Below are positions 17,694-29,793 of a stretch of DNA of 35,268 bases, piece after piece. The notes under the pieces are model-generated. The model searched no databases. It worked only from the letters and a program-made list of their open reading frames with translations, and had not been told where the DNA came from. The stretch is taken from contig JAPKYX010000161.1 of the NCBI GenBank assembly GCA_026394075.1, positions 1-35,268 on the forward strand, in the 5' to 3' direction. The stretch is from Acidobacteriota bacterium (GTDB lineage: Bacteria > Acidobacteriota > Terriglobia > Bryobacterales > Bryobacteraceae). How positions within the stretch are numbered: position 1 is the stretch's first letter; every line of letters starts with the position of its first letter. The position numbers and the translations under genes were made by a program.

Positions 17694-20102
17694 CTAGAAG
17701 TAACGTTCCTGACGCCGCAGAGTGCCGAAGCTGCCGATGTTGGCAATCGACAGGGCAAGCCGGAACTGGTTTTCGTTGCGGGTGCCGAAGCTGAAGCGGC
17801 GGTACTGCACGGAGAACCCGCAGCAATCGGTGTTGTAAGTGATCTGGGTATTGGCGAACTGTAAGATACCCAGGCGGTAATCATAGATCGCAAAAAAGCC
17901 GGTGTTCCAGCCGCGGCGGTTCTCCTTGCCAAAGCCAACCAAGCCCCGGAACTGGTTGGCGGGGGGCGACAGAAACGTATCAGTCTTGACCTGATTGTGG
18001 CCCAGCGACAGGAAGAAGTTATCCAGGCGGCCATCGGCGGTAACGCCAGAGTTGATCACGCGCCCCTGCAGTGGATCATAGTCGGCTCGCCATTCGATGC
18101 CCAGGCCAGGCACCGGCTCCATGCGGAGGGCGGAGACGATCGGCGAGTAGCGTCGCTGGAGACCCAGAAAATTATAGGCCGACAACGAGGCTGTCGATTC
18201 GATGACGTTGCGTTGACCCGGTGTGACGGCACCGCCGAAAGTGGGATCGAAATAGCGCCGGTGCCAGACTTGCCACGACAGTAGCTCCCGCGTCACCGTG
18301 CCCTTTTTCGAGTAGAGCCGGTTAGTAAGAGACAGCTCGACTTCATTGGTATTGTTCAGCAGTTCGGTTTCATCAAACCGGATGATTCGTTTGAAATCCG
18401 AGACGCCCGTCACGTACCGGTGGCTCACCCGCGGTTCAATGACGTGCTTCACCTTCTCGCCCAGCCAGCCGTGTGCCTGGTAGACACGGGCGAGCGGCGG
18501 GAGGATGATCTCCAGGCCCGTCTCAAACGCATTCCGGACCACCATGTCGCCAATGGGATTCAACGGCCGGGCGGTATCGAGGCTGCTGCCCCAGATAGAG
18601 CCGCGGAGAGCGGCGCTGGGAATGATGGAGATGGGGCCCAACCGCAATGAGGTCATGATGCGGGGCGCGATATCGAAGCGTTCTACGAACTGACGGGTTT
18701 GGAACAATGGCTGGCTGCGCCGCACGGCAGCCGCGCTGCTCTCAAACGAGACCCAGACCGGCAGCGTGGAGCGAAGTTGGCGATCGGCCGACAGAAATTC
18801 CACTTGCGGGGCTTTCCGGACCGAGATCTTGTCGTTCTCATTGACACTCTGGAAGTTGTCGACACTCTGGAAGACGGCGTTGATGCCGTAGCCATTCCAG
18901 TGCTTGGCCACCACGGCAGTGGAGCCAACTTCGGAGAATACGGCTTCGTTAAACGTCTCGGTAAAGGCCTGGCGGAAGCGGAATGAACTGAGGTAGTTCA
19001 ACAACGCCGTGGCGGTCCAGCCTCGGCCCAGGTCCGCTTTGCCGATAAAGTTTGCCGACACGCCGCCTTCTTTGCGTCCCCGGGTTCCATCGTTGAGCAA
19101 CAGGCCCTTGTCGTTGACGCCGTAGACCAGCAGGTTGAAGTCCGATTTCTGGGTCGGTTTGCCACGGAAGTCACCCATATGCGCGAAGCCGCGCTGGGTG
19201 AAGTACTGGCCACGATAGGTGAGGTCGTAGCTGCGGTTGATGGCCCAGTAGTAACCCGCGCCCACCATCAACCCGCGGCGGGAACTGTTGCCCAGGTTGG
19301 GCATCAGGAAGCCGCTGCGGCGGGGCATTTTCTCGAGCGACTTGTAGAAGTACGGGACAAAGAAGAGCGGCACCCCCTTCAGCCGGAACATCGAGTTGCG
19401 CGTGATCACTCGCTGGCCAGGGATAATGTCGAACCGGGGGCCATGCAAGCGCCACCAGGGCTTGGGCAGCTTGCAGGAGGTGACAAAGCCGTCATAGAGG
19501 ATGTAGCGGGTCTCGATGCGCTCCGCCCATTTGCCCTCAAACTGAAACGGATTGTCGGAGGTCATCACGCCGGGGCGGGCCTGGATGGTGGCCGGAATGG
19601 TGCCGGAAACTTCGTAGAACTTTCCGGTCTCCGTCTTGACGTCGTAGACAGCCCGGGCGCAGCGCAGCACTTCCCCGCCACTGAAGTTGCGATAACGGAC
19701 GTTGCCCCGCGCTTCGGCGTCGCCCGTATCCTCGTTGTAATCGATCTCGTCGGCTTGCAGGAGCCCTTCAGCAGTTTCCACTTCAGCCGACCCACGGAGG
19801 TGATAAATTTTGCCCTCCACCTCGCTACGCAGGTAACGGACCAGCACTTCATCGGGAGCCGGCGCGTTGGGCCGGATCACCTTTACCCTTTTGTTTGGTT
19901 GAGGATCGCCGGAAGCAGCTCCAGGCCGGGGGATACCGAGGAGATTGGGGTTCAGTTGCCCCCAAGCGAAGTTGCCTGTTAACAATAGAGTAGCCAGGCT
20001 AAGTTGAACTAGCCGATGAGAAAAAAGCCCGTGACAACTAGTGCTGAATATGTTAAGCAAAGAAGCGGGGTATTTTGCGCGAGCCAGGAAATGAGACCCC
20101 AA
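17694..20102 (-). CDS. lptD: LPS-assembly protein LptD
   Basis: LptD is the outer-membrane barrel that, with LptE, inserts lipopolysaccharide into the outer leaflet. The ~800-residue length fits. After a signal region (LVQLSLATLLLTGNFAWG) there is an LptA/OstA-like domain at ~65-160 (GSAEVETAEGLLQADEIDYNEDTGDAEARGNVRY), then the barrel. A Cys pair (TDCCGFSVQYRRF) near the C-terminus matches the conserved CC of LptD; partner cysteines (CARAVYD, SCKLPKPWW) occur in the N-terminal half, consistent with the inter-domain disulphides that activate LptD. The last residue is Phe, a BAM signal. The called start is a TTG at 20102 with no Shine-Dalgarno; TTG 20060 would place the signal peptide nearer the N-terminus, so the start is uncertain. 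Confidence 0.9.
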   Translation of the reverse strand: MGSHFLARAKYPASLLNIFSTSCHGLFSHRLVQLSLATLLLTGNFAWGQLNPNLLGIPRPGAASGDPQPNKRVKVIRPNAPAPDEVLVRYLRSEVEGKIYHLRGSAEVETAEGLLQADEIDYNEDTGDAEARGNVRYRNFSGGEVLRCARAVYDVKTETGKFYEVSGTIPATIQARPGVMTSDNPFQFEGKWAERIETRYILYDGFVTSCKLPKPWWRLHGPRFDIIPGQRVITRNSMFRLKGVPLFFVPYFYKSLEKMPRRSGFLMPNLGNSSRRGLMVGAGYYWAINRSYDLTYRGQYFTQRGFAHMGDFRGKPTQKSDFNLLVYGVNDKGLLLNDGTRGRKEGGVSANFIGKADLGRGWTATALLNYLSSFRFRQAFTETFNEAVFSEVGSTAVVAKHWNGYGINAVFQSVDNFQSVNENDKISVRKAPQVEFLSADRQLRSTLPVWVSFESSAAAVRRSQPLFQTRQFVERFDIAPRIMTSLRLGPISIIPSAALRGSIWGSSLDTARPLNPIGDMVVRNAFETGLEIILPPLARVYQAHGWLGEKVKHVIEPRVSHRYVTGVSDFKRIIRFDETELLNNTNEVELSLTNRLYSKKGTVTRELLSWQVWHRRYFDPTFGGAVTPGQRNVIESTASLSAYNFLGLQRRYSPIVSALRMEPVPGLGIEWRADYDPLQGRVINSGVTADGRLDNFFLSLGHNQVKTDTFLSPPANQFRGLVGFGKENRRGWNTGFFAIYDYRLGILQFANTQITYNTDCCGFSVQYRRFSFGTRNENQFRLALSIANIGSFGTLRRQERYF

Positions 20103-20170
20103 CTTTGAACGCTATCACGGGATCTACCCTGGAGCAACTGAAGCCAGCGGCCGAATAAAAGACATCGACC

Positions 20171-21055
20171 ATGAACTGCCGCTACTGTGGGGCACAAAAC
20201 GATACGGAGGAGAGCCGCTGCGGGCGGTGTGGCCGCCGCCTGGACGTAGCAATTGCACGGCCTGCTGAATCGTTCGTGCGTGGTACCGCTGATCTGGGTC
20301 CGCGTAGCGCCTCGGCGGTGGCGGTGAAGATGGCGCGGGTAGCCCAGCCACTTTCGTCCCCGCAAGTATCGCTTTTCCCCACAGCGCCGCCCAAGGCTCG
20401 CGTGGTGCCCATCACCGGACACCCGGCCGGACCGGACTCACCGGAAGCCCCGTCGGCACCCAAGCCGGCCCGGACGGCCCGCAAGATCACCAGCGTTGCG
20501 CCGTCGGCCCAGCAACCGCTGGCATTCTCTGCGCCGGGTTCCTTCCCGGCAGCGGGTGAGTTTGCCAAGGAAAGCGGCAACGGCCGCCCGGCGGCGAGTC
20601 AGGAATCAGAGATTTTTACCCAGGCACCCGTGGCCACGGCGGCTCACCGGTCACTGGCCATGTTGGTGGATGCCGGCCTGGTGGCGGCGGGCGTGGGAGT
20701 GATGTTGGCGCTGTTTGTCTATGGCGTCAAGACCCCGGTATCGCTGGACCGGACGACGGCCATCGGCGCGGTGGGCTTGACGGTGATTTCGACGATCCTC
20801 TACCAAAGCCTGCTTGTGATTGGGAACCGCGATTCCGTGGGCCTGCGCTTTGCCCGGCTCCGCTTGATCGATTTTGATGGCCGCTCACCTTCGCGCAAAA
20901 AGCGATTGGCGCGCATGGCGGCCAGCTGGCTGAGCTCCGCACCGGGCGCGTTGGGCATCGTCTGGGCACTTCTGGATGAGGAACACCTCACCTGGCATGA
21001 CCACATCTCCAAGGTGTTCCCGACGCCGATTGATGTGCCCCGGATCGGGCGCTAA
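20171..21055 (+). CDS. Zinc-ribbon and RDD-domain membrane protein
   Basis: A 294-residue protein with three parts. Residues 1-25 form a zinc ribbon with two Cys pairs (CRYCGAQND and CGRCGRR). Residues ~26-145 are a Pro/Ala-rich, probably disordered linker. From ~150 comes an RDD membrane domain: AAHRSLAMLVDAGLV carries the first Arg and Asp, two hydrophobic helices follow (VAAGVGVMLALFVYG and AIGAVGLTVISTILYQSLLVI), then DSVGLRFARLRLIDFDG and the last helix near ASWLSSAPGALGIVWALL. RDD proteins are integral inner-membrane proteins, some proposed as transporters; the function is unknown. It is divergent from lptD with about 68 nt between starts and converges on hpnD (10 nt gap). No good Shine-Dalgarno precedes ATG 20171. 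Confidence 0.85.
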   Translation: MNCRYCGAQNDTEESRCGRCGRRLDVAIARPAESFVRGTADLGPRSASAVAVKMARVAQPLSSPQVSLFPTAPPKARVVPITGHPAGPDSPEAPSAPKPARTARKITSVAPSAQQPLAFSAPGSFPAAGEFAKESGNGRPAASQESEIFTQAPVATAAHRSLAMLVDAGLVAAGVGVMLALFVYGVKTPVSLDRTTAIGAVGLTVISTILYQSLLVIGNRDSVGLRFARLRLIDFDGRSPSRKKRLARMAASWLSSAPGALGIVWALLDEEHLTWHDHISKVFPTPIDVPRIGR

Positions 21056-21065
21056 GCGACTTCCG

Positions 21066-21938
21066 TCAGTCGCGACGGCCGGCCCAGGTGGCCAGCAGAG
21101 ACCGGATCATCACCCAGGTCTTCTCCGCCCCGCTCAACCGGATCCGTTGGGTTAGGACGTCATAGTCCGCAGCCTCAATGCGATGCAGCAGCGTCGAGTA
21201 GATCTCGATCAAAGCTCGCAGCGAGGCCCGGCTGGCGGGATGGATCATGTCGAGCAGCGGGCGGGATTCGTCGAAGTAGCCGCGGGCTCGCTGCCCTTCC
21301 AGGCGGAGCAGATCACGGAACGCCGGGGAGTCCGCCATCTGGGTGACGCCAAACCGGTCCAGGTCTGCTTGCGGCAGATAGACGCGCCCGCGGTCGAGAT
21401 CTTCCTGGACGTCGCGCAGGATGTTGGTTAGCTGAAAGGCGAGGCCACATTTTTCCGCCAGCAGTGGCGCGCGGGGATCGGTGAACCCAAAGATGTGGAT
21501 GACGCTGATGCCGACCACACTGGCCACCTGGTAGCAGTAACGGTAAAGCTCATCAAAGGTGGCGATGCGGCGTGGTTCCAGATCGCTGACCATGCCATCG
21601 ATCATGTCTTCAAAGACGTGATGGGGGATCGAGTACCGCTGAACCGCGTCGGCGAAACCGGGCCAGAGCGCGTGCGGTGGAAGCTGCCCGGCCAGCGCAC
21701 TACGGGTGTCCCGCCGCCACGCGGCCAGCGCCTCGCGCTTCTGGTCCACCGTCCGGCCGGTGTCGTCCGCCAGGTCGTCCGAGATGCGGAAGAAGGTGTA
21801 CACCGAACAGATGGCCCGGTGCTTTTCCGGCGACAGCAGGCGGAAGGCGTAGTAGAAGTTTCGCGCTTCCCGCTTCGCCTCGGCGGCACTCCAGCGGTAT
21901 GAGTCAGCCACAGTGACGGGCAAAGCAACGGTGGCCAT
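21066..21938 (-). CDS. hpnD: Squalene/presqualene synthase HpnD
   Basis: A 290-residue head-to-head prenyl synthase. In the HpnC/D/E route, HpnD joins two farnesyl diphosphates into presqualene diphosphate. The N-terminal NFYYAFRLLSPEKHRAICSVYTFFR matches HpnD rather than HpnC. The two Asp-rich metal-binding motifs are present: ISDDLADDTG near residue 53 and ILRDVQEDLDRGRVYLPQ near residue 173. The nearby hpnC is a distant paralogue. HpnD and HpnC lie at the 3' end of the hopanoid operon, 20 nt apart. The third enzyme, HpnE, is not in the window. Phytoene synthase is a related alternative, but the neighbours make hopanoid synthesis far more likely. Confidence 0.93.
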   Translation of the reverse strand: MATVALPVTVADSYRWSAAEAKREARNFYYAFRLLSPEKHRAICSVYTFFRISDDLADDTGRTVDQKREALAAWRRDTRSALAGQLPPHALWPGFADAVQRYSIPHHVFEDMIDGMVSDLEPRRIATFDELYRYCYQVASVVGISVIHIFGFTDPRAPLLAEKCGLAFQLTNILRDVQEDLDRGRVYLPQADLDRFGVTQMADSPAFRDLLRLEGQRARGYFDESRPLLDMIHPASRASLRALIEIYSTLLHRIEAADYDVLTQRIRLSGAEKTWVMIRSLLATWAGRRD

Positions 21939-21958: not shown

Positions 21959-22891
21959 TCAGGCGGCCCGGGACACAGCCCAGCCCGCCAATCCTTTCAG
22001 TAGCAACATGACGCGCTCCAGCTTGCTGATGCGGGGACGCGCTTTCAATACATCATAGCCCTGGCGTTCGATCTTGCTGAGGATCGCCAGACCGCCGCGC
22101 GTGAATAGCTCAATGTCGAGCGCTAGGCGCGGGTCGAGCGATCGGGCCAGTGGCGCGCCTTCGGAAAAGCTTTGCCGGGCGTGCTCCACGGCCTCGCGCA
22201 TGGCGGCCTGAAAGCCCGGAGAGAAGCGCCGGGCGGCAATGTCGGCTTCGACTACGCCGTGCCGCGCCAGCAGGTCCTGCGGCAGATAAACGCGATCCTT
22301 GGCCCAATCAACCGTCACATCCTGCCAGAAGTTGGCCAGCTGCAGGCCGGTACAGGTGGCGTCGGACTGGCGGAACCGCTCGGCGTCCCGGTAACCACAC
22401 AGCAGCAACACCAGACGCCCCACAGGATTGGCGGACCGCCGGCAGTAGTCCTCCAGTTCGGCCCAATCGGCATACCGGGATTTCACCTGATCCTGCTCGA
22501 AGGCCTGGATCAGATCATCAAACGGCTCGACCGGAAGATCCCGGCGTTGCGCGGTACCCCGAAGGGCGACAAAGACCGGGTGCTGCACTTCGCCCCGGTA
22601 CATCGCCTGCAACTGCTGGCGCCACCAGGCCAGCATGCGGAGACTTTCCTGGCGATCACCCAACTCATCACCCAGATCATCCGCCCACCGGCAGAACGAG
22701 TAGACGTTGTAGAAATCCTGGTGCAGGTGCGGGGGCAGCAGAAAGCTGACTACGTGAAAATTTTCGTAGTGATGCGTGGCCAGCCAACGGGTGTAGGCTT
22801 CTGCTTCGCTCAGCGAATAGGCGCGCTGAAGCAGCTGGGGCTGACGGACAAAATCCTTGGGTTCGAGTTGCGGCGCGGGTCCGGCGGACAC
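21959..22891 (-). CDS. hpnC: Hydroxysqualene synthase HpnC
   Basis: A 310-residue member of the squalene/phytoene synthase family. HpnC converts presqualene diphosphate to hydroxysqualene. HYENFHVVSFLLPPHLHQDFYNVYSFCRWADDLGDE is the HpnC form of the first motif (ENF...LLPP, DDLGDE); the second Asp motif is ANFWQDVTVDWAKDRVYLPQ. The start codon is GTG. The gene lies 5 nt after the second dehydrogenase and 20 nt before hpnD, inside the operon. Both metal-binding motifs are intact, so an active enzyme is expected. The N-terminal ~35 residues before the catalytic fold are unique to this protein. Confidence 0.93.
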   Translation of the reverse strand: MSAGPAPQLEPKDFVRQPQLLQRAYSLSEAEAYTRWLATHHYENFHVVSFLLPPHLHQDFYNVYSFCRWADDLGDELGDRQESLRMLAWWRQQLQAMYRGEVQHPVFVALRGTAQRRDLPVEPFDDLIQAFEQDQVKSRYADWAELEDYCRRSANPVGRLVLLLCGYRDAERFRQSDATCTGLQLANFWQDVTVDWAKDRVYLPQDLLARHGVVEADIAARRFSPGFQAAMREAVEHARQSFSEGAPLARSLDPRLALDIELFTRGGLAILSKIERQGYDVLKARPRISKLERVMLLLKGLAGWAVSRAA

Positions 22892-22896
22892 TGGCT

Positions 22897-23952
22897 TTAC
22901 GGGATGATGGCCGTCTTCAAGTGGCCATTGTGCGACATCAGGTGCTTAAACACATCAAGCAGCTTCGACAGCGGCTCTTCGCGGTTTACAAACTGACGCG
23001 CGGTGACATGGCCGGCGGAGATCATGTCCAGCGCGGCCCGGATGTGCTTGGGCGTGTGGTGGAAACTGGCCTTCAGCGTGATCTCGGAATAGTGCAGATG
23101 CTGCGTGTCGATGGGGACAGTGGTGTCGGAGGGGCAGCCGCCGAAGAAATTCACCGTGCCACCGCGGCGGACCATCTGTACCGCTTCCTGCCAAGTCTGG
23201 GGTGACCCGACGGCTTCAATGGCGACATCGGCGCCATGATCCTTGGTCACATCGCGGACGGCGGTCACCAGGCTGAGCGAATCGTCGGCGGTCAGCAGTA
23301 CCTGGGCACCCAGCGCCCCGGCACGCTCCAGTTGAGTGGGCCGGCGGCCGATCGCGATCACCCGCGCGCCACGGAGGGCAGCCACGCGGACAAACATCAA
23401 CCCAATCGGCCCCAGACCAATCACCACGACGTTGTCGCCCGGATTGATCACCGTTTCCTCGACACCGCGCAAGACACAGGCCAGCGGTTCCGCTAGTGCC
23501 GCGTCCTGATAGCTGACATGCGGGGCCAGTTCATAGGTGTTCCGTTCGACAATGCGCGAGGGGATGCGAATGTATTCGGCGTAGGCACCATTGTTGAAGA
23601 GCAGGTCCTCGCAAAGGTTCTCAACGCCCTTCTTGCAATAGAAACAGTGGCCACAGGGGGCCGAATTGGCCGCCATGATCCGCTGTCCCGTGTGAAAACG
23701 CGTCACCTGATCGCCGGTAGCCACAACGTCGCCAGCCAGTTCATGCCCAAACAAGGCGGGCGGAACAATCATCCGGGCGTGGTAGCCACGCCGGAAGACC
23801 TTGACGTCAGTGCCACAGGTAAGGGCGGCCTTCACCCTGACAAGCAGATCTCCGGGCCCAATTTGGGGGACGGCTACGGGTTCGACTTTGACTTGCTCTT
23901 TGCCGTACAGCACTGCGGCGAGCATCTTGTTGGTGCGAGGTGAGATATCCAC
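22897..23952 (-). CDS. Zinc-dependent MDR alcohol/polyol dehydrogenase (second of pair)
   Basis: A ~351-residue medium-chain dehydrogenase. Catalytic zinc ligands are the Cys of ALTCGTDVK and the His-Glu of FGHELAG. The four structural-zinc cysteines are in APCGHCFYCKKGVENLC. The nucleotide-binding fold shows VVVIGLGPIGLMFV. It resembles the sorbitol/threonine dehydrogenase branch. The frame is open to 24051 inside the upstream gene; I chose GTG 23952 because AAAGGGG lies 6 nt upstream, and it overlaps the upstream TAG by one base (TAGTG). ATG 23925 (MLAAVLYG) is the alternative and looks like a common MDR start. It is translationally coupled to its paralogue and sits between hpnG and hpnC, suggesting an oxidoreduction step on hopanoids; the substrate is not known. 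Confidence 0.88.
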   Translation of the reverse strand: MDISPRTNKMLAAVLYGKEQVKVEPVAVPQIGPGDLLVRVKAALTCGTDVKVFRRGYHARMIVPPALFGHELAGDVVATGDQVTRFHTGQRIMAANSAPCGHCFYCKKGVENLCEDLLFNNGAYAEYIRIPSRIVERNTYELAPHVSYQDAALAEPLACVLRGVEETVINPGDNVVVIGLGPIGLMFVRVAALRGARVIAIGRRPTQLERAGALGAQVLLTADDSLSLVTAVRDVTKDHGADVAIEAVGSPQTWQEAVQMVRRGGTVNFFGGCPSDTTVPIDTQHLHYSEITLKASFHHTPKHIRAALDMISAGHVTARQFVNREEPLSKLLDVFKHLMSHNGHLKTAIIP

Positions 23953-25064
23953 TACAAGCCCCTTTGAGGCTGTACTACGATTTTCAATGATTCCCCGGTC
24001 GGATGCAACGCCAGATCGAAGCCTTCTGCAATCCGCTCGAGCGGCAGGCAATGCGAGATCAACTCAGCCACCGGCAATTCTCCACTGAAAACAAGGTCCG
24101 CGGACTCCTTTTGCAGATCGACTGATGCTGAGTAACAACCATACAACAATCTCTCATCTTTGCAGATGTCGGCCCCGGACAAATCGATTCTTTCCTGATC
24201 AGAAGTTTGCGCAAATAACAGAATTTGGGCACCGGGACGCGACGCCCGGACAGCCTGCTCCACCAAACCAGGCGCGGAAGTGGCCAAAATCACCAAATCC
24301 ACACCGCGTCCGTCGCTCATTTGTTTGGCCAGGGCGGCTACGTCCTGCTCGCGCGGATTGACAGCCTGCTCGGCACCAAAGCGGAGCGACAATTCCAGAC
24401 GGCGAGGCATGGTATCGGTGGCCAGGATGCGGCAGCCCAGGCGGCGGACCAACATCGTGAAGATGAGCCCGATCGGCCCTTGACCGAGAATGGCCACGGT
24501 GTCGCCAGGTTGAGGCCGGGCCTGATGGATCGCCTTGACGCAGGTATTGACCGGTTCGACGAACGAAGCCTGCTCAAATGACACGCCATCGGGGATCTTT
24601 TCGACGCCCCGCGCCACAATCCAGTCCATCACCCGGACGTACTGCGAAAAGCCGCCGCCTGCCGCTTCAAAACCAGCCGTGACGCCAACCCTTTTGTAGA
24701 CAGCACATTGGGCGTACAGCTTGCGCTGGCAATAGAAACAATCGCCGCAGGGGATGTGATGGAAAGCGATCACCCGGTCACCCGGCGCAAAGCGCGTGAC
24801 ACCTGCGCCTACCTGGGCCACGACACCCGCGGTTTCGTGACCGTATACCCGGGGCGGCGGCAGCAGGTCGTACTCCACCTTTTTCAGGTCGGTATGACAG
24901 ATACCGCAGGCTTCCACCCGAATCAATATCTCGCCCGGGCCGATCTCAGGCAGCGCGATGGACTCCAGGCGGACTTCGCCCTGGCCACGATAAACGGCAG
25001 CCTTCATCAGCGCCGGAGTGGCGATAGCGGCCAGCTGTTCCGGCTCAGATTGAGCAGTTGACAA
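23952..25064 (-). CDS. Zinc-dependent MDR alcohol/polyol dehydrogenase (first of pair, next to hpnG)
   Basis: A 370-residue medium-chain dehydrogenase. Catalytic zinc ligands are C53 in ACGICHTDLK and H76-E77 in YGHETAG. Structural-zinc cysteines are C106, C109, C112 and C120 (PCGDCFYCQRKLYAQC). The cofactor site has VAILGQGPIGLIF, and a DTMPRR segment after beta-2 (acidic Asp) suggests NAD rather than NADP. The sequence resembles sorbitol and related polyol dehydrogenases. The start is TTG 25064 with GGGAG 6 nt upstream, overlapping hpnG by 20 nt; ATG 25007 lacks a binding site. Being coupled to hpnG, it could act on the product of HpnG, reducing the ribose-derived aldehyde of ribosylhopane; this role is inferred from position and family chemistry only. 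Confidence 0.88.
   Translation of the reverse strand: MSTAQSEPEQLAAIATPALMKAAVYRGQGEVRLESIALPEIGPGEILIRVEACGICHTDLKKVEYDLLPPPRVYGHETAGVVAQVGAGVTRFAPGDRVIAFHHIPCGDCFYCQRKLYAQCAVYKRVGVTAGFEAAGGGFSQYVRVMDWIVARGVEKIPDGVSFEQASFVEPVNTCVKAIHQARPQPGDTVAILGQGPIGLIFTMLVRRLGCRILATDTMPRRLELSLRFGAEQAVNPREQDVAALAKQMSDGRGVDLVILATSAPGLVEQAVRASRPGAQILLFAQTSDQERIDLSGADICKDERLLYGCYSASVDLQKESADLVFSGELPVAELISHCLPLERIAEGFDLALHPTGESLKIVVQPQRGL
23959..23965 (-). promoter_or_regulatory. Ribosome binding site deciding the start of the second dehydrogenase
   Basis: AAAGGGG on the minus strand lies 6 nt before GTG 23952, inside the last codons of the upstream dehydrogenase. It favours the GTG over the internal ATG at 23925, which has no Shine-Dalgarno sequence. 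Confidence 0.55.
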
Positions 25065-25761
25065 TGAACTCTCCCAAGTTTTCCGCTGCTTGCCGGCTGC
25101 GGCCTTGCAACCGCCACAATTCCGGCAATCCTTTCAAGGGCTTACGTAGAGCATCCCACAAAATATGGCTGGTCCGGAATCGTCCGTCAGAGCCCCGGGC
25201 GGCGTTGAGATCCACCTGAAACCCTTCGCTGGCCAAGTCACTGACGGCCTTCACGCACCCAAAGGGGACTTGAGCCCCCAGGGCCACGCGAGCCACGGCC
25301 GCGGCTTCCATTTCCACCACGGCACCTAGTGAACGCAAACCCCGCTTCTCGTCCGCCGTGGACGCGACACGATCCTGGCTTACTACCACGATGGGTTTAC
25401 CCGTCTCCTTCTTCCCGTTACGGCGGCTGGCAGGCGATCCACCGGCCGGGTATCTTGCCCCGCTCGATGCGTGAACCACTTCGGTGGCCGTCAAAACCTC
25501 CCCGGCAACCAGAGCGTCATCCAACGCTCCACAAAGGCCCACGCTCCAGATCAGGTCCGGTTGGAACCGCTCCAAAGCCACTTCGGCTGCCTTACCCGCC
25601 AACTCCGATCCCGGTCCATCGGCAGCACAGATCAACCGGTGTTTCCCCCATTGTCCCACGCGCACGAACCGGATGGGCATCCCCTCCGTAGGGGAGTGCG
25701 GCACCCGGCTGAGGACCCCCGCCAACTCGCGAGCCTCGGCCGCAATTAACACAATTGTCAT
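25045..25761 (-). CDS. hpnG: Hopanoid-associated nucleosidase/phosphorylase HpnG
   Basis: A 238-residue member of the MTA/SAH nucleosidase (PNP/UDP) family. HpnG removes adenine from adenosylhopane, giving ribosylhopane on the path to bacteriohopanetetrol. The family start IVLIAAEARELAGVL is present, followed by LIWSVGLCGALDDALVAGEVL. The purine-site region VVEMEAAAVARVA and the catalytic-Asp region VKAVSDLASEGFQ are intact. No signal peptide is seen. It lies 30 nt after hpnA, and its 3' end overlaps the first dehydrogenase. Its presence implies that adenosylhopane is made, which needs the radical-SAM enzyme HpnH; that gene is not in this window. Sequence alone would also fit a generic nucleosidase, but the neighbours decide. 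Confidence 0.9.
   Translation of the reverse strand: MTIVLIAAEARELAGVLSRVPHSPTEGMPIRFVRVGQWGKHRLICAADGPGSELAGKAAEVALERFQPDLIWSVGLCGALDDALVAGEVLTATEVVHASSGARYPAGGSPASRRNGKKETGKPIVVVSQDRVASTADEKRGLRSLGAVVEMEAAAVARVALGAQVPFGCVKAVSDLASEGFQVDLNAARGSDGRFRTSHILWDALRKPLKGLPELWRLQGRSRQAAENLGEFIVNCSI
25071..25075 (-). promoter_or_regulatory. Ribosome binding site for the TTG start of the first dehydrogenase
   Basis: GGGAG on the minus strand lies 6 nt before TTG 25064, within the 3' end of hpnG. It supports a TTG start overlapping hpnG by 20 nt, rather than the internal ATG at 25007. Confidence 0.5.
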
Positions 25762-25791: not shown

Positions 25792-26763
25792 CTAAGTGTA
25801 GCCATGCTCGCGAAACCATTCCACCGCGCGGCGCAGCGCCTCCCGAGCCGGGCCGGGCCGATAGCCTAGCTGCTGCGAGGCCTTCTCGTGCGAGACCCAC
25901 ATTTTCTTGGCCGACATGCGCACCGCGTCGATAGGCACGCGCGGCGGCTCACCACTGACTGACGCCCAGGCGGAACTGGCGTAACCGGCCAGGTAAGCCA
26001 CCCAGAGCGGAATCCTGAGTTTCGGCGCGGGCCGCCCGCTGACCTCTTCCAGGATCTGGCAGATGCCCTCCAGCGTCAGGTTTTCCGCGCCCAGGATGTA
26101 GCGCTCCGCCGATCGGCCGTGGTTCAGCGCCAGCAAGTGTCCCTGGGCGACATCCCGAACATCCACCAGATTCAGGCCCGTGTCGACGAATGCGGGCATC
26201 TGACCGGTGAGGTAGTCCACCGTAATCTTGCCAGTGGGCGTGGGCTTAAAGTCATGGTCGCCAACCGGGGCCGTGGGATTGACGATCACCACCGGAAACC
26301 CGGTGTGGGCGAAGTTGATGACCGCCAGCTCGGCCAGATACTTCGACCGCTTGTACGCCCCGTGCATGCCGTCGAGCGTAGTGGCCGCCTCCTCCGTGCC
26401 CGCGGCGTGTCCCTCGACGCCGATGCAGCCAACCGTGGAAGTGTAAACGACCCGGTCCACCAGTGCATCGCGCGAGGCTTCCAGCAAGTGCATCGTGCCA
26501 TCGACGTTGGAGCGGTAAAGCTCCTGCGGATCCTTGGCCCACAATCGGTAATCCGCCGCCACATGGAAGACGGCACCGCAACCGGCCACCGCGCGGTCGA
26601 GCGACGCCCGATCCCGCAGATCACCAGTGACCACTTCGACATCCAGCTCCGGCACGGGTTTGCCGCGGGTGAGCGCGCGGACCCGATGGCCGCGCTCCAG
26701 TAGAGTGCGGGCCACGTGCCAGCCGACAAAGCCGGTGGCTCCGGTAACGAGAGTAGGCTTCAC
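25792..26763 (-). CDS. hpnA: Hopanoid-associated sugar epimerase/dehydratase HpnA
   Basis: An extended short-chain dehydrogenase/reductase. The Rossmann glycine motif is at the start (TLVTGATGFVGWHVA, G8-G11-G14) and the catalytic Tyr/Lys pair is in AYKRSKYLAE (about Y137, K141). Other family marks are VFHVAADYRLWAKDP, NVDGTMHLLEA and VYTSTVGCIGV. This pattern is characteristic of HpnA, a protein constantly found in hopanoid clusters whose exact reaction is unsettled. GTG 26763 gives the usual start directly before the Rossmann strand; the frame also allows TTG 26784, seven codons longer, and neither has a strong binding site. shc ends about 66 nt upstream and hpnG starts 30 nt downstream. 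Confidence 0.9.
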   Translation of the reverse strand: MKPTLVTGATGFVGWHVARTLLERGHRVRALTRGKPVPELDVEVVTGDLRDRASLDRAVAGCGAVFHVAADYRLWAKDPQELYRSNVDGTMHLLEASRDALVDRVVYTSTVGCIGVEGHAAGTEEAATTLDGMHGAYKRSKYLAELAVINFAHTGFPVVIVNPTAPVGDHDFKPTPTGKITVDYLTGQMPAFVDTGLNLVDVRDVAQGHLLALNHGRSAERYILGAENLTLEGICQILEEVSGRPAPKLRIPLWVAYLAGYASSAWASVSGEPPRVPIDAVRMSAKKMWVSHEKASQQLGYRPGPAREALRRAVEWFREHGYT

Positions 26764-26829
26764 AGGAAAAAAGTGTGTGGCCAAGCACCAGGGCGAGTCA
26801 AGGCCCCGGTTGATTGGCCCGCTGGCTAC

Positions 26830-28782
26830 CTAGTCGGAAGGCGGCCGCCGTTTCAAAAATTCACCCAACGCCAGCACAGGGAACGAGTTCCGGTAAAGGT
26901 GGTAGTTGAGGTAGAAGACACGCGGGAAACCCGTGCCCGTCGCCAGGGCTTCGCGCCACAGCCCGTCAGCTTGCTGGGTTTCAGAAAGATGCTGTACGCC
27001 CTTCAGCACGCTAGAGGAGGTTTCGTCGCCGCCGGCGAGCAATCCCAGCACGGCCCAGGCGGTTTGCGAAGGAGTGGAGGGCGCGGGGACAAAGGAATTC
27101 TTGTCGTAGGATTCGCAGCTTTCGCCCCAACCGCCGTCGGCGTTCTGGATGGAGCGCAGCCATTCCCCCGCCCGCAGCACCGGAGCCTCGCGGTCGCTGT
27201 AACCCGCCGCCTTCAAGCCTCGCAGAGCCAGGAAGGTGCCATAGACGTAATCGACACCCCAGCGGCCATACCAACTGCCGTCCGGTTCTTGCGTTTTCAG
27301 CAGATACTCAACACCTCGCTGGATCGCTGGGTGCTCAGTCGGGACACCCCAGCGGCACAGTGCTTCGATGACGCGGCCCGTGATGTCCGGGCAGGTGGGA
27401 TCCAGCATGGCATTGTGGTCGGCAAACGGCACGTCACTGAGGAACTGCCAGTTGTTGTCCACGTCAAACGCCGCCCAACCGCCATCGGAGGACTGCATGC
27501 CGAGCAGCCACTTCTTGGCCCGGTCGACGCAAGCATCCAGCGCCGCCTGATCGGACGCGCCCGTGTGCCACAGCGCCAGCAGCACCATGGCGGTGTCGTC
27601 GATGTCGGGATAAAATTCGTTCGCGAACTCGAAATACCAGCCCGAGGGCTCTAGTTCAGGCCGCTTCACTGACCAATCGCCCTTGCGGCGGCACTCTTTG
27701 GTCAGCAGCCAGTCACCACATCGGCGCATGGCGTCGGTGGGGGCCACCCCGGTTTCACCCAACGCATAGGCGGCGATGGCGGTGTCCCACACCACTGAAA
27801 AGCAGGGCTGGAAAAAGAACTTCGCCTCGGCGTCCATGCCGCCCGGCGCGGGTTCCTGATCCTCAACAATCAGCGCCTCAAACTGCCGCACCGCTTCCAC
27901 CACCGCCGGATGATCGGCCGGGTAGCCCAATACATCGAGCGCCATGATGGCGTACATCATCGGCGGATAGATCGCCGCCAGGCCTTCGGAATGCGCGAAC
28001 CGCTCCAGCATCCACTCTTCGGCCTTCTTGATTGCCTTGCGGCGCAGTTGCTCAGACCCGAAACGCTCCCAGAGCTTGAAGACTCGATCCACTTTGTGGA
28101 ACAGGCTCTTCCAGGAGAAGAGGCTATCGGCCGGGGCAAACGCGGTGGAAACACCAGGAGCAAAGATCTCGCTTAGATCAAAGCCGGTGGGCGCGGGGCG
28201 GCCCGTGTTGAGGCTTTGAGTAATGGCCAGCGGGATCACGATCGCCCGCGTCCAGGAACTCATCTCATAGATGACGTCGCCGAACAGCATCAACTCCGGC
28301 GGCACGCTGGGCACATGCTCACGCGGGTAGAGGTTAAACAGCGAAAGGTTCAGCTTGGTGTAGCTATTGGCGGCCTGGATGCCACCGAGCGCCAGAATGC
28401 GCTGCCGCAGCCGCACCATGGGCTCAGCATCCACGTCCTGCCCGGACAGTTTCAGCGCGAAATAGGCCTTCACGCTGGCGCTGATTTCCGAAGGTCCAGC
28501 GACGTAGATATTGAAGCCGCCATCCGGCAACTGACGCGACAGGATGGACCGGACGGCCTTTTCGATTCTGGCCTTGGAAGGTGGGTTCCAGACGCTACCC
28601 TGCGGCGGGTGACGCCACAGTTCCAGCAGAATGTAGTCCGATTCGAGTGTCGTGTCCGCCGTGAGATCAGCCCACCAGAAGCCTTGCGGGTGCTGCTGCG
28701 CCATCAAGGCATCGACCGCGCGGAGGGAGGTTCGAGAGGCTCCGGCGGAGACCAGATCGCTTAAGTGGAGCGAGGGGCTCAT
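26830..28782 (-). CDS. shc: Squalene-hopene cyclase
   Basis: A 650-residue membrane-associated cyclase (HpnF) that folds squalene into the five-ring hopene or hopanol. The catalytic acid motif DIDDTAM lies at residues 393-396, the DxDD hallmark. Several QW repeats are visible: QLPDGGFNIY near 85, QSSDGGWAAFD, QEPDGSWYGRWGVDYVYGT, QNADGGWGES and QQADGLW. The DNA-to-protein length matches known bacterial enzymes (about 630-680). The ATG overlaps the TGA of ispH (ATGA), so it is translationally coupled to isoprenoid precursor synthesis. It is the defining gene of the hopanoid operon. Hopanoids act like sterols, ordering the membrane. Confidence 0.97.
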   Translation of the reverse strand: MSPSLHLSDLVSAGASRTSLRAVDALMAQQHPQGFWWADLTADTTLESDYILLELWRHPPQGSVWNPPSKARIEKAVRSILSRQLPDGGFNIYVAGPSEISASVKAYFALKLSGQDVDAEPMVRLRQRILALGGIQAANSYTKLNLSLFNLYPREHVPSVPPELMLFGDVIYEMSSWTRAIVIPLAITQSLNTGRPAPTGFDLSEIFAPGVSTAFAPADSLFSWKSLFHKVDRVFKLWERFGSEQLRRKAIKKAEEWMLERFAHSEGLAAIYPPMMYAIMALDVLGYPADHPAVVEAVRQFEALIVEDQEPAPGGMDAEAKFFFQPCFSVVWDTAIAAYALGETGVAPTDAMRRCGDWLLTKECRRKGDWSVKRPELEPSGWYFEFANEFYPDIDDTAMVLLALWHTGASDQAALDACVDRAKKWLLGMQSSDGGWAAFDVDNNWQFLSDVPFADHNAMLDPTCPDITGRVIEALCRWGVPTEHPAIQRGVEYLLKTQEPDGSWYGRWGVDYVYGTFLALRGLKAAGYSDREAPVLRAGEWLRSIQNADGGWGESCESYDKNSFVPAPSTPSQTAWAVLGLLAGGDETSSSVLKGVQHLSETQQADGLWREALATGTGFPRVFYLNYHLYRNSFPVLALGEFLKRRPPSD

Positions 28783-29768
28783 GACGCCGAAACGCGGGGC
28801 GCGGCGGAGATCTGCATGAGTTCAGGTGGCAACGAGAAGCGGACGTCTTCCTCCTTCACGTCCATCTGCTCCAAGGCGCTATATCCGCGGCCCTGGAGAG
28901 ACGCCACCAGTTCCGCCACCAGATTTTCCGGGGCCGAAGCACCCGCGGTCACAGCCACCGTGTTGACGCCAACGAGCCAGGCTGGATTGACATCGTGCTC
29001 ATCGTCCACCAGATAGGCCGGCACGCCGGCTTTCTCGCAAACTTCCACCAGACGCCGGGAATTCGAACTATTCTGGCTGCCGACCACTAGCAGCAGGTCA
29101 CACAGCGGGGCCACGGCCTTGACGGCGATCTGCCGGTTCTCCGTCGCGTAGCAGATATCCTGCGACTTGGGCCCGACAATGGCGGGAAACCGCTCATGCA
29201 AACGGGCCACGATGTCACGGGTTTCATCCAGTGACAGTGTGGTCTGGGTCAGGTAGGAGACCTTGGTGGGGTTGGCCAGTTCCAGTTCGTCCACGTCGGC
29301 CACCGTCTCCACCAGCACCATGGAATCCGGCTCTTCGCCCATCGTGCCGGCCACTTCTTCGTGGTGCTTGTGGCCAATCAGAACAATGGTGAAGCCCTGG
29401 CGAGCAAATTTCTTTGCCTCCAGGTGGACCTTGGTGACCAAGGGGCAGGTGGCATCGATGACGTTCAACTGGCGGGCGACCGCTTCCGCCCGGACGGCCG
29501 GCGAAACGCCATGGGCCGAGAAGATCGCCCGGGCTCCCACCGGCACTTCATCCAGTTCCTCGACGAAAATCGCCCCGGAAGCGCGGAGGTCGTCCACCAC
29601 ATGCTTGTTGTGGACAATCTCACGCCGCACGTAGATGGGTGCCCCGTAGGCTTCCAGTGCAATCTTGACGACATCGATCGCTCTGACAACACCAGCGCAG
29701 AATCCGCGCGGGCTTAACAAAACAATCCGTTTATCCGCAGTGCGGGCAGCGGTCCCCGTGGTGCTCAT
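28779..29768 (-). CDS. ispH: 4-hydroxy-3-methylbut-2-enyl diphosphate reductase IspH
   Basis: The last enzyme of the MEP pathway, an iron-sulphur reductase giving IPP and DMAPP. The three cluster-binding cysteines are present: C24 in SPRGFCAGVVRAID, one in DATCPLVTKVH, and one in VAPLCDLLLVVGSQNSSNS. Other marks are REIVHNKHVVDDL, FSAHGVSP and the final GASAPENLV. I chose ATG 29768 because GGAAGG lies 9-10 nt upstream; an ATG at 29786 would sit inside the probable -10 box. It heads the hopanoid operon and overlaps shc by 4 nt, so precursor supply and cyclisation are translated together. It may be the only ispH of the genome or an extra copy dedicated to hopanoids; the window cannot tell. Confidence 0.96.
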   Translation of the reverse strand: MSTTGTAARTADKRIVLLSPRGFCAGVVRAIDVVKIALEAYGAPIYVRREIVHNKHVVDDLRASGAIFVEELDEVPVGARAIFSAHGVSPAVRAEAVARQLNVIDATCPLVTKVHLEAKKFARQGFTIVLIGHKHHEEVAGTMGEEPDSMVLVETVADVDELELANPTKVSYLTQTTLSLDETRDIVARLHERFPAIVGPKSQDICYATENRQIAVKAVAPLCDLLLVVGSQNSSNSRRLVEVCEKAGVPAYLVDDEHDVNPAWLVGVNTVAVTAGASAPENLVAELVASLQGRGYSALEQMDVKEEDVRFSLPPELMQISAAPRVSAS

Positions 29769-29773
29769 ACGAG

Positions 29774-29793
29774 TGATACCTTCCATTGTATCA
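29774..29793 (-). promoter_or_regulatory. Extended -10 promoter and inverted repeat ahead of the hopanoid operon
   Basis: On the minus strand TGATACAAT (29785-29793) fits an extended -10 box (TGnTAnAAT), 15 nt before the ispH ATG; no -35 box is evident. The same bases form an inverted repeat, TGATAC (29774-29779) and GTATCA (29788-29793) with an 8-nt spacer. It lies in the 42-nt gap between divergent ispH and ogt, so a regulator bound here could affect both. Confidence 0.45.

Follow-up and report, generated by a model that had tools for sequence, protein, structure and literature searches.

Candidate roles for two zinc dehydrogenases linked to hpnG in acidobacterial hopanoid loci

Genes of the locus and their linkage to hpnG

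We analysed a 35,268-nucleotide (nt) stretch of Acidobacteriota DNA (contig JAPKYX010000161.1, assembly GCA_026394075.1; hereafter the window), in which two tandem genes for zinc polyol-type medium-chain dehydrogenases, MDR1 (23952..25064) and MDR2 (22897..23952), lie between the hopanoid genes hpnG (25045..25761) and hpnC (21959..22891). The window is one contig (C136; labels beginning with G, L, f and C denote genomes, loci, families and contigs) of a 5.77 Mb genome in 302 contigs, and the host is placed near Bryobacterales. All four genes belong to a minus-strand run that reads ispH-shc-hpnA-hpnG-MDR1-MDR2-hpnC-hpnD. Upstream of hpnG the run comprises ispH (28779..29786), the squalene-hopene cyclase gene shc (26830..28782; 615 bits, cut-off 431) and hpnA, a hopanoid-associated short-chain dehydrogenase/reductase (SDR) bearing a sugar epimerase name (25792..26784; 443 bits, cut-off 368). 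Downstream of the pair are hpnC, for squalene synthesis (358 bits, NCBIfam cut-off 250), and an hpnD-like presqualene diphosphate synthase gene (21066..21938; 254 bits, cut-off 279). The hpnG gene, which encodes a divergent hopanoid-associated phosphorylase/nucleosidase, scored 106.5-106.7 bits on its best model, TIGR03468, against a curated cut-off of 187.1. That cut-off was reached in 0/61 relatives and 0/297 genomes of the phylum, so annotation by cut-off would under-call acidobacterial hpnG; from its context and best-model status we read the window gene as the local HpnG despite its score.

The first-pass annotation of this DNA had described two tandem zinc dehydrogenases between hpnG and hpnC, the first overlapping hpnG by 20 nt from a TTG start preceded by GGGAG and the second overlapping the first by one base. 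Both open reading frames were found in these places with complete zinc sites, and the overlaps were reproduced from the called starts, with the TTG at 25064, GGGAG six bases upstream of it, and a GTG at 23952 that overlaps the MDR1 stop by one base. An in-frame methionine lies downstream of each start (M20 at ~25007 in MDR1, invariant in 19 aligned rows; M10 at ~23925 in MDR2, invariant in 18), and translation may begin further downstream than called, which would shorten the overlaps or remove them.

The hpnG-MDR1-MDR2 linkage was strong. Among 61 genomes of relatives, the window's own included, MDR1 was found in 59 (E ≤ 1e-60), MDR2 in 58 and hpnG in 57, and MDR1 directly followed hpnG on the same strand in 57/57 hpnG-positive genomes, with a largest gap, by coordinates, of ~380 bp. 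In a second set, the best 80 of 507 contig-scan loci, which overlaps the relatives set and shares some contigs with it, hpnG lay directly upstream of MDR1 in 75 of the 78 loci with room for it (the others being L150, with ~570 bp between the genes, and L175 and L176, with no hpnG), and MDR2 lay directly downstream of MDR1 in 73/73. Within 2.5 kb of the locus, this set had hpnC in 67/68, hpnA in 66/70, shc in 59/64 and hpnH in 33/64 loci. Where hpnG and MDR1 were on one strand in fetched loci, MDR1 lay within -80 to 500 nt of hpnG in 40/42 (median spacing -20; script-chosen starts put 36 in overlap). In these fetched loci MDR2 came after MDR1 in 49/49. The MDR1 of L098 is 92% identical to that of the window.

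The full order ispH-shc-hpnH-hpnA-hpnG-MDR1-MDR2-hpnC-hpnD-hpnE was seen in G231 (f8), G044 and G054 (both f3), and the same order minus ispH in G155 (f56) and G060 (f7). We rejected confinement of the linkage to close relatives: the linkage survey proposed by the first-pass annotation found hpnG-MDR1 together in numerous genera, which belong to seven families (f1, f2, f3, f4, f7, f8 and f56). The linkage is not new. Excerpts of PMC5462960 (2017) describe a gene, ug1, that follows hpnA-hpnG in acidobacterial hopanoid clusters, and another, ug2, that precedes hpnC and that annotations often call a Zn-binding alcohol dehydrogenase (about 350 amino acids). Their positions correspond to those of MDR1 and MDR2, and for ug2 the product corresponds too; we equate them by position, not accession. 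The same excerpts give no product for ug1 and nothing on cofactor, a stand-alone gene trio or retention without shc.

The arrangement varied between families. In f8, hpnG and MDR1 were adjacent in 24/24 genomes with both matches (gap up to ~0.8 kb), and they stayed paired in the 19 of 28 f8 genomes with strong MDR1 in which MDR2 lay elsewhere (strong meaning E < 1e-100, a cut set after seeing a gap between 1e-107 and 1e-70). The separate MDR2 preceded hpnC-hpnD-hpnE in both loci read, those of G096 and of G332, where no MDR1 was found. Linkage to hpnG did not hold in f34 or f45. Eleven of the 12 f34 loci read ispH-hpnA-MDR1-MDR2-hpnD and the twelfth shc-hpnH-hpnA-MDR1-MDR2-hpnC-hpnD-hpnE, none with hpnG between, while in f45 the pair lay away from hpn genes. 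Loss of hpnG from f34, as read from TIGR03468 at E ≤ 1e-20, was rejected because that search had missed the gene: a better profile, including two f34 rows, matched elsewhere in 11/12 f34 genomes, one match being only a fragment.

At the g37 loci (7/7) and the single g40 locus, hpnG-MDR1-MDR2 were the only genes of the cluster found together, standing among others that included GlnE, SDR and sensor genes. This stand-alone trio is new here. The loci concerned are L083, L084, L086, L089, L090, L091, L092 and L093. Such trios would suit a hopanoid-independent module for 5'-modified nucleosides, in which the 5-substituted ribose freed by HpnG is turned over by polyol-pathway logic, with reduction by NADPH and oxidation by NAD+. 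They would also suit a self-standing nucleoside-to-polyol module, made up of a nucleosidase, an NADPH reductase and an NAD dehydrogenase, that was recruited by hopanoid makers for the C35 side chain and acts on other 5'-substituted nucleosides where squalene-hopene cyclase is missing. We consider either version unlikely. The g37 HpnG scored 137-161 bits on TIGR03468, closer to the cut-off than the window HpnG, which suggests that it has an ordinary HpnG role.

Zinc sites, cofactor motifs and fold

Both proteins contain ADH_N and ADH_zinc_N domains above Pfam gathering scores. The catalytic zinc ligands (C-H-E and the E of EPL/EPV) and four structural cysteines, residues that serve as ligands in this family, are complete in MDR1 and MDR2. 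They were invariant in 135/135 MDR1 and 122/122 MDR2 homologues, except for one C46D (counts are of distinct sequences from fetched loci with ≥45% identity and >300 aligned residues, the rest being dropped). The exceptional MDR2, whose first catalytic ligand is changed, lies at 9680-10726 of L053 in G060. The GxGxxG nucleotide-binding motif was also invariant (G194/G196/G199 across 19 rows of MDR1, G179/G181/G184 across 18 rows of MDR2). Domains, ligands and motif together bear out the polyol-type zinc dehydrogenase class given by the first-pass annotation.

In this fold, an acidic residue at the end of the second Rossmann strand usually goes with NAD(H), and a non-acidic one with NADP(H). The residue was D or E in 135/135 MDR1 sequences (D217 in the window) and non-acidic in 121/122 MDR2 sequences, mostly as G-R-R (G202-R203-R204 in the window). 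On these conserved residues MDR1 would be an NAD(H)-type and MDR2 an NADP(H)-type enzyme, and the conservation of this predicted split is new here. The two window proteins share 29% identity, and this distance together with their different cofactor motifs led us to reject a recent tandem duplication.

Known enzyme families did not account for either protein. L-threonine 3-dehydrogenase (TIGR00692; 159 bits for MDR1 and 154 for MDR2, cut-off 458) and scyllo-inosose 3-dehydrogenase IolM (NF041097; 154 and 177 bits, cut-off 450) were among the best-scoring NCBIfam models, yet both fell far under their cut-offs and were rejected. AlphaFold2 models had a mean pLDDT of 92.4 for MDR1 and 91.2 for MDR2. 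The closest solved folds of the two included 4ej6/4ejm, ketose reductase and sorbitol, threonine and several alcohol dehydrogenases, with many ties. For MDR2 the closest folds, among them an NADP-bound zinc dehydrogenase, ketose reductase and sorbitol dehydrogenases, gave Z scores of 43.5 to 40.7 (root-mean-square deviation 1.7-2.2 over 334-337 residues) and were nearly tied with other alcohol dehydrogenases. The NADP(H)-dependent ketose reductase/sorbitol dehydrogenase structures 1e3j and 1pl6 (Z 41.6/40.9) resemble MDR2 in fold, zinc ligands and polyol-type architecture, but at only 27-31% identity. The top match of both proteins was a Sinorhizobium putative zinc-binding dehydrogenase, 4ej6/4ejm (Z 41.9 for MDR1 and 43.5 for MDR2; 29-32% identity), for which no function is stated and for which we know of no hopanoid context.

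Co-inheritance, retention and candidate functions

We surveyed an even sample of 297 genomes from the phylum. The shc gene was found in 76 and hpnG in 71 (E ≤ 1e-20), MDR1 in 62 (E ≤ 1e-60; 46 strong) and MDR2 in 67 (48 strong). Genomes with strong MDR1 had shc in 43/46 cases, against 33/251 of the others, counts that are uncorrected for relatedness; the strong MDR1 genomes without shc were G270 and G341 (84 and 88% complete) and G280 (100% complete). In G058 and G059, shc, hpnH, hpnG and both dehydrogenases were all missing together, and G059 retained hpnC-D-E, a joint absence that fits a side-chain role. A further genome, G067 (L038, C102; 100% complete), has a match to an IS630-type transposase after ispH-shc-hpnH, and hpnG, MDR1, MDR2 and hpnC/hpnD were not found in it. 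As these genes are missing together, beside the transposase, the case is uninformative on the role of the pair.

Many bacteriohopanepolyols derive from bacteriohopanetetrol (BHT), and with them a large part of the fossil record of hopanes. A nucleosidase that releases an aldose, followed by one NADPH-type and one NAD-type polyol dehydrogenase, reproduces the logic of the classical polyol pathway. Excerpts of PMC12583986 (2025) still describe the enzyme that converts ribosylhopane to BHT as not established, as the first-pass annotation had assumed, and see no obvious candidates besides HpnA, B, L and M near the hpn clusters of the Alphaproteobacteria studied there. The literature searched, in excerpts, names no gene for a ribosylhopane reductase.

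Gene order, co-inheritance, zinc sites and cofactor motifs were observed directly. On our best reading of them, the two dehydrogenases form a lineage-specific redox pair whose substrate would be a sugar or polyol resembling the hopanoid side chain. A more specific form, to which we give roughly one chance in three, places this zinc polyol-type pair in the chemistry of the HpnG product. The pair is part of the hopanoid locus in the class of the window and in a few neighbouring acidobacterial families. The substrates, directions and products that we infer are then as follows. HpnG would release a 5-substituted ribose, ribosylhopane, as in the pathway of the cited papers. MDR2, if NADPH-dependent, would most likely reduce the ring-opened aldehyde to the polyol, BHT; MDR1, if NAD(H)-dependent, would oxidise or reduce a neighbouring side-chain hydroxyl, or might itself be the reductase. 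The assignment is not decided: predicted cofactor favours MDR2 as the reductase, position favours MDR1, and a hopanoid is a candidate substrate for either. Both are thus candidates for the missing step and not proven enzymes. The locus offers two testable genes, with predicted cofactors, for the formation of BHT.

Several observations weigh against this reading. The closest solved structures, 21-33% identical to the pair, show the fold only and give no substrate. In f8, the position of the separate MDR2 at the head of hpnC-hpnD-hpnE speaks against its acting on the HpnG product. The pair was also not universal among genomes with BHT genes. No strong MDR1 was found in 33/76 shc genomes, 31 of them outside f1, f8, f34, f45 and f56. 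Eighteen of the 33 had a weak match to one gene at 38-44% identity and of uncertain orthology, such matches being MDR1-like in f32 and f54 and MDR2-like in f38, f53 and f83; one (G332) had a strong MDR2, and 14 matched neither gene at E ≤ 1e-60. Of this last group, nine were read (G089, G131, G159, G179, G212, G251, G305, G318 and G337), and in these genomes, from nine families, shc-hpnH-hpnA-hpnG occurred with no MDR1 or MDR2 match at that threshold. A general ribosylhopane reductase would be present wherever shc, hpnH and hpnG are; these nine families therefore argue against MDR1 or MDR2 as the general missing enzyme. The weak matches set aside (E 1e-60 to 1e-100) were MDR1-like in 16 genomes and MDR2-like in 19. 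Three genomes (G156, G183 and G225) combined shc, hpnH and hpnG with a 42-43% MDR2-like gene and no MDR1 at E ≤ 1e-60, and the MDR2-like locus of G156, the one read among the MDR2-like genomes, had no hpn neighbour.

In families without the pair, HpnA adjoins hpnG. Across 20 hpnG loci from families without strong MDR1, no MDR1 or MDR2 match lay within five genes, the one exception being an MDR2-like gene (28%) that precedes shc in L184, and shc-hpnH-hpnA-hpnG was seen in 13/20. BHT might be made by HpnA, or by an enzyme encoded elsewhere, and a side-chain hydroxyl tailored afterwards by MDR1 and MDR2, for example by inversion via a keto group, with NAD+ oxidation by one and NADPH reduction by the other. 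We hold this to be possible but doubtful. It suits the conserved NAD(H)/NADP(H) pairing and the position of hpnA, which lies beside hpnG in those 13 loci and near it in one more. We know of no altered bacteriohopanepolyol stereoisomer in this group, however, which counts against it. The excerpts of PMC5462960 propose HpnA for the ribosylhopane step, but also cite evidence that Burkholderia cenocepacia can make BHT without hpnA and that some BHT makers have no such gene. For Chloracidobacterium thermophilum, which they describe as lacking ug2, they cite the occurrence of BHT and of its cyclitol ether.

The pair was also kept where hopanoid genes were missing. Three genomes of one genus (G048, G049 and G050; 98, 93 and 99% complete) had no shc at E ≤ 1e-10 and no hpnH, and kept MDR1-MDR2-hpnC-hpnD-hpnE. 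Of these, only G049 had hpnG left. In G048, ~105 bp before MDR1 align with the 3' end of the G049 hpnG; in G050, where a remnant was sought before MDR1, the alignment begins only inside MDR1, and hpnG profile hits in G048 and G050 were marginal. Between these two genomes, both without hpnG, the ratio of nonsynonymous to synonymous substitution rates (dN/dS) was 0.17 for MDR1 (Fisher p = 1.5e-7), which shows purifying selection on MDR1; the MDR2 value of 0.46 does not reach significance by itself (p = 0.08). The comparison of G048 with G049 gave 0.06 for MDR1 and 0.08 for MDR2, with dS near saturation. G280, without shc, hpnH or hpnG, keeps MDR1-MDR2 and hpnC-D-E (dN/dS against G126, 0.22 for MDR1 and 0.35 for MDR2), and in G192 a strong MDR2 was found with no match to shc, hpnH, hpnG or hpnC/D. 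The two MDR2-like genes of G192 (L047, L048) are 49 and 45% identical to MDR2, and one is followed by a 30% MDR1-like gene.

Retention of the pair without shc is new here, and some role evidently survives without shc and hpnH. A general reductase would be absent when shc and hpnH are; G048, G049, G050 and G280 depart from this, and argue against reduction of ribosylhopane as the only job of the pair. They are natural counterexamples that need explaining before either gene is called the reductase, and tailoring after HpnA leaves them unexplained as well. The nucleoside module draws some support from G049, where hpnG-MDR1-MDR2 persist and shc and hpnH were both undetected. Yet G049 is the 93% complete genome and also keeps hpnC, hpnD and hpnE, and G048, G050 and G280 keep the dehydrogenases without hpnG.

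Both lineages that have the pair without shc or hpnH keep hpnC, hpnD and hpnE, which would fit action of MDR1 and MDR2 in the squalene or an isoprenoid-alcohol branch instead of the side chain. The separate MDR2 at the head of hpnC-D-E in two loci read, and the association of ug2 with hpnCDE in the excerpts of PMC5462960, agree with this. Against it, those excerpts cite Pan et al. 2015 for the synthesis of squalene by HpnC, HpnD and HpnE with no other partners, G059 has hpnC-D-E without the dehydrogenases, in split clusters MDR1 remains beside hpnG, and in G280 the pair and hpnC-D-E are on different contigs. We find this branch improbable as the site of action. No carotenoid-type gene was found among 10 proteins scanned beside hpnC-D-E in G048, G280 and G059.

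The proposal of the first-pass annotation, that one of the two dehydrogenases is the missing reductase, is therefore partly supported: their polyol-type class and their linkage to hpnG stood, but the nine families without them argue against a general ribosylhopane reductase, and their retention without shc and hpnH against this step as their only job.

Other features of the window and its genome

The hpnH gene, often found between shc and hpnA in relatives, is absent from that interval of the window (26784-26830). A divergent HpnH in this genome was considered and rejected, as the hpnH match sits at the end of contig C179 (L079), cut by the edge. The hpnE gene is not beside hpnC-hpnD (20102-21066), and no genome-wide hpnE search was made. 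Contig C80 (L078 4209-9855) carries a cluster of genes for a farnesyl/geranylgeranyl diphosphate (FPP/GGPP)-synthase-like protein, a CrtI-type desaturase, a CrtB-like protein and an HpnB/CruG-like glycosyltransferase.

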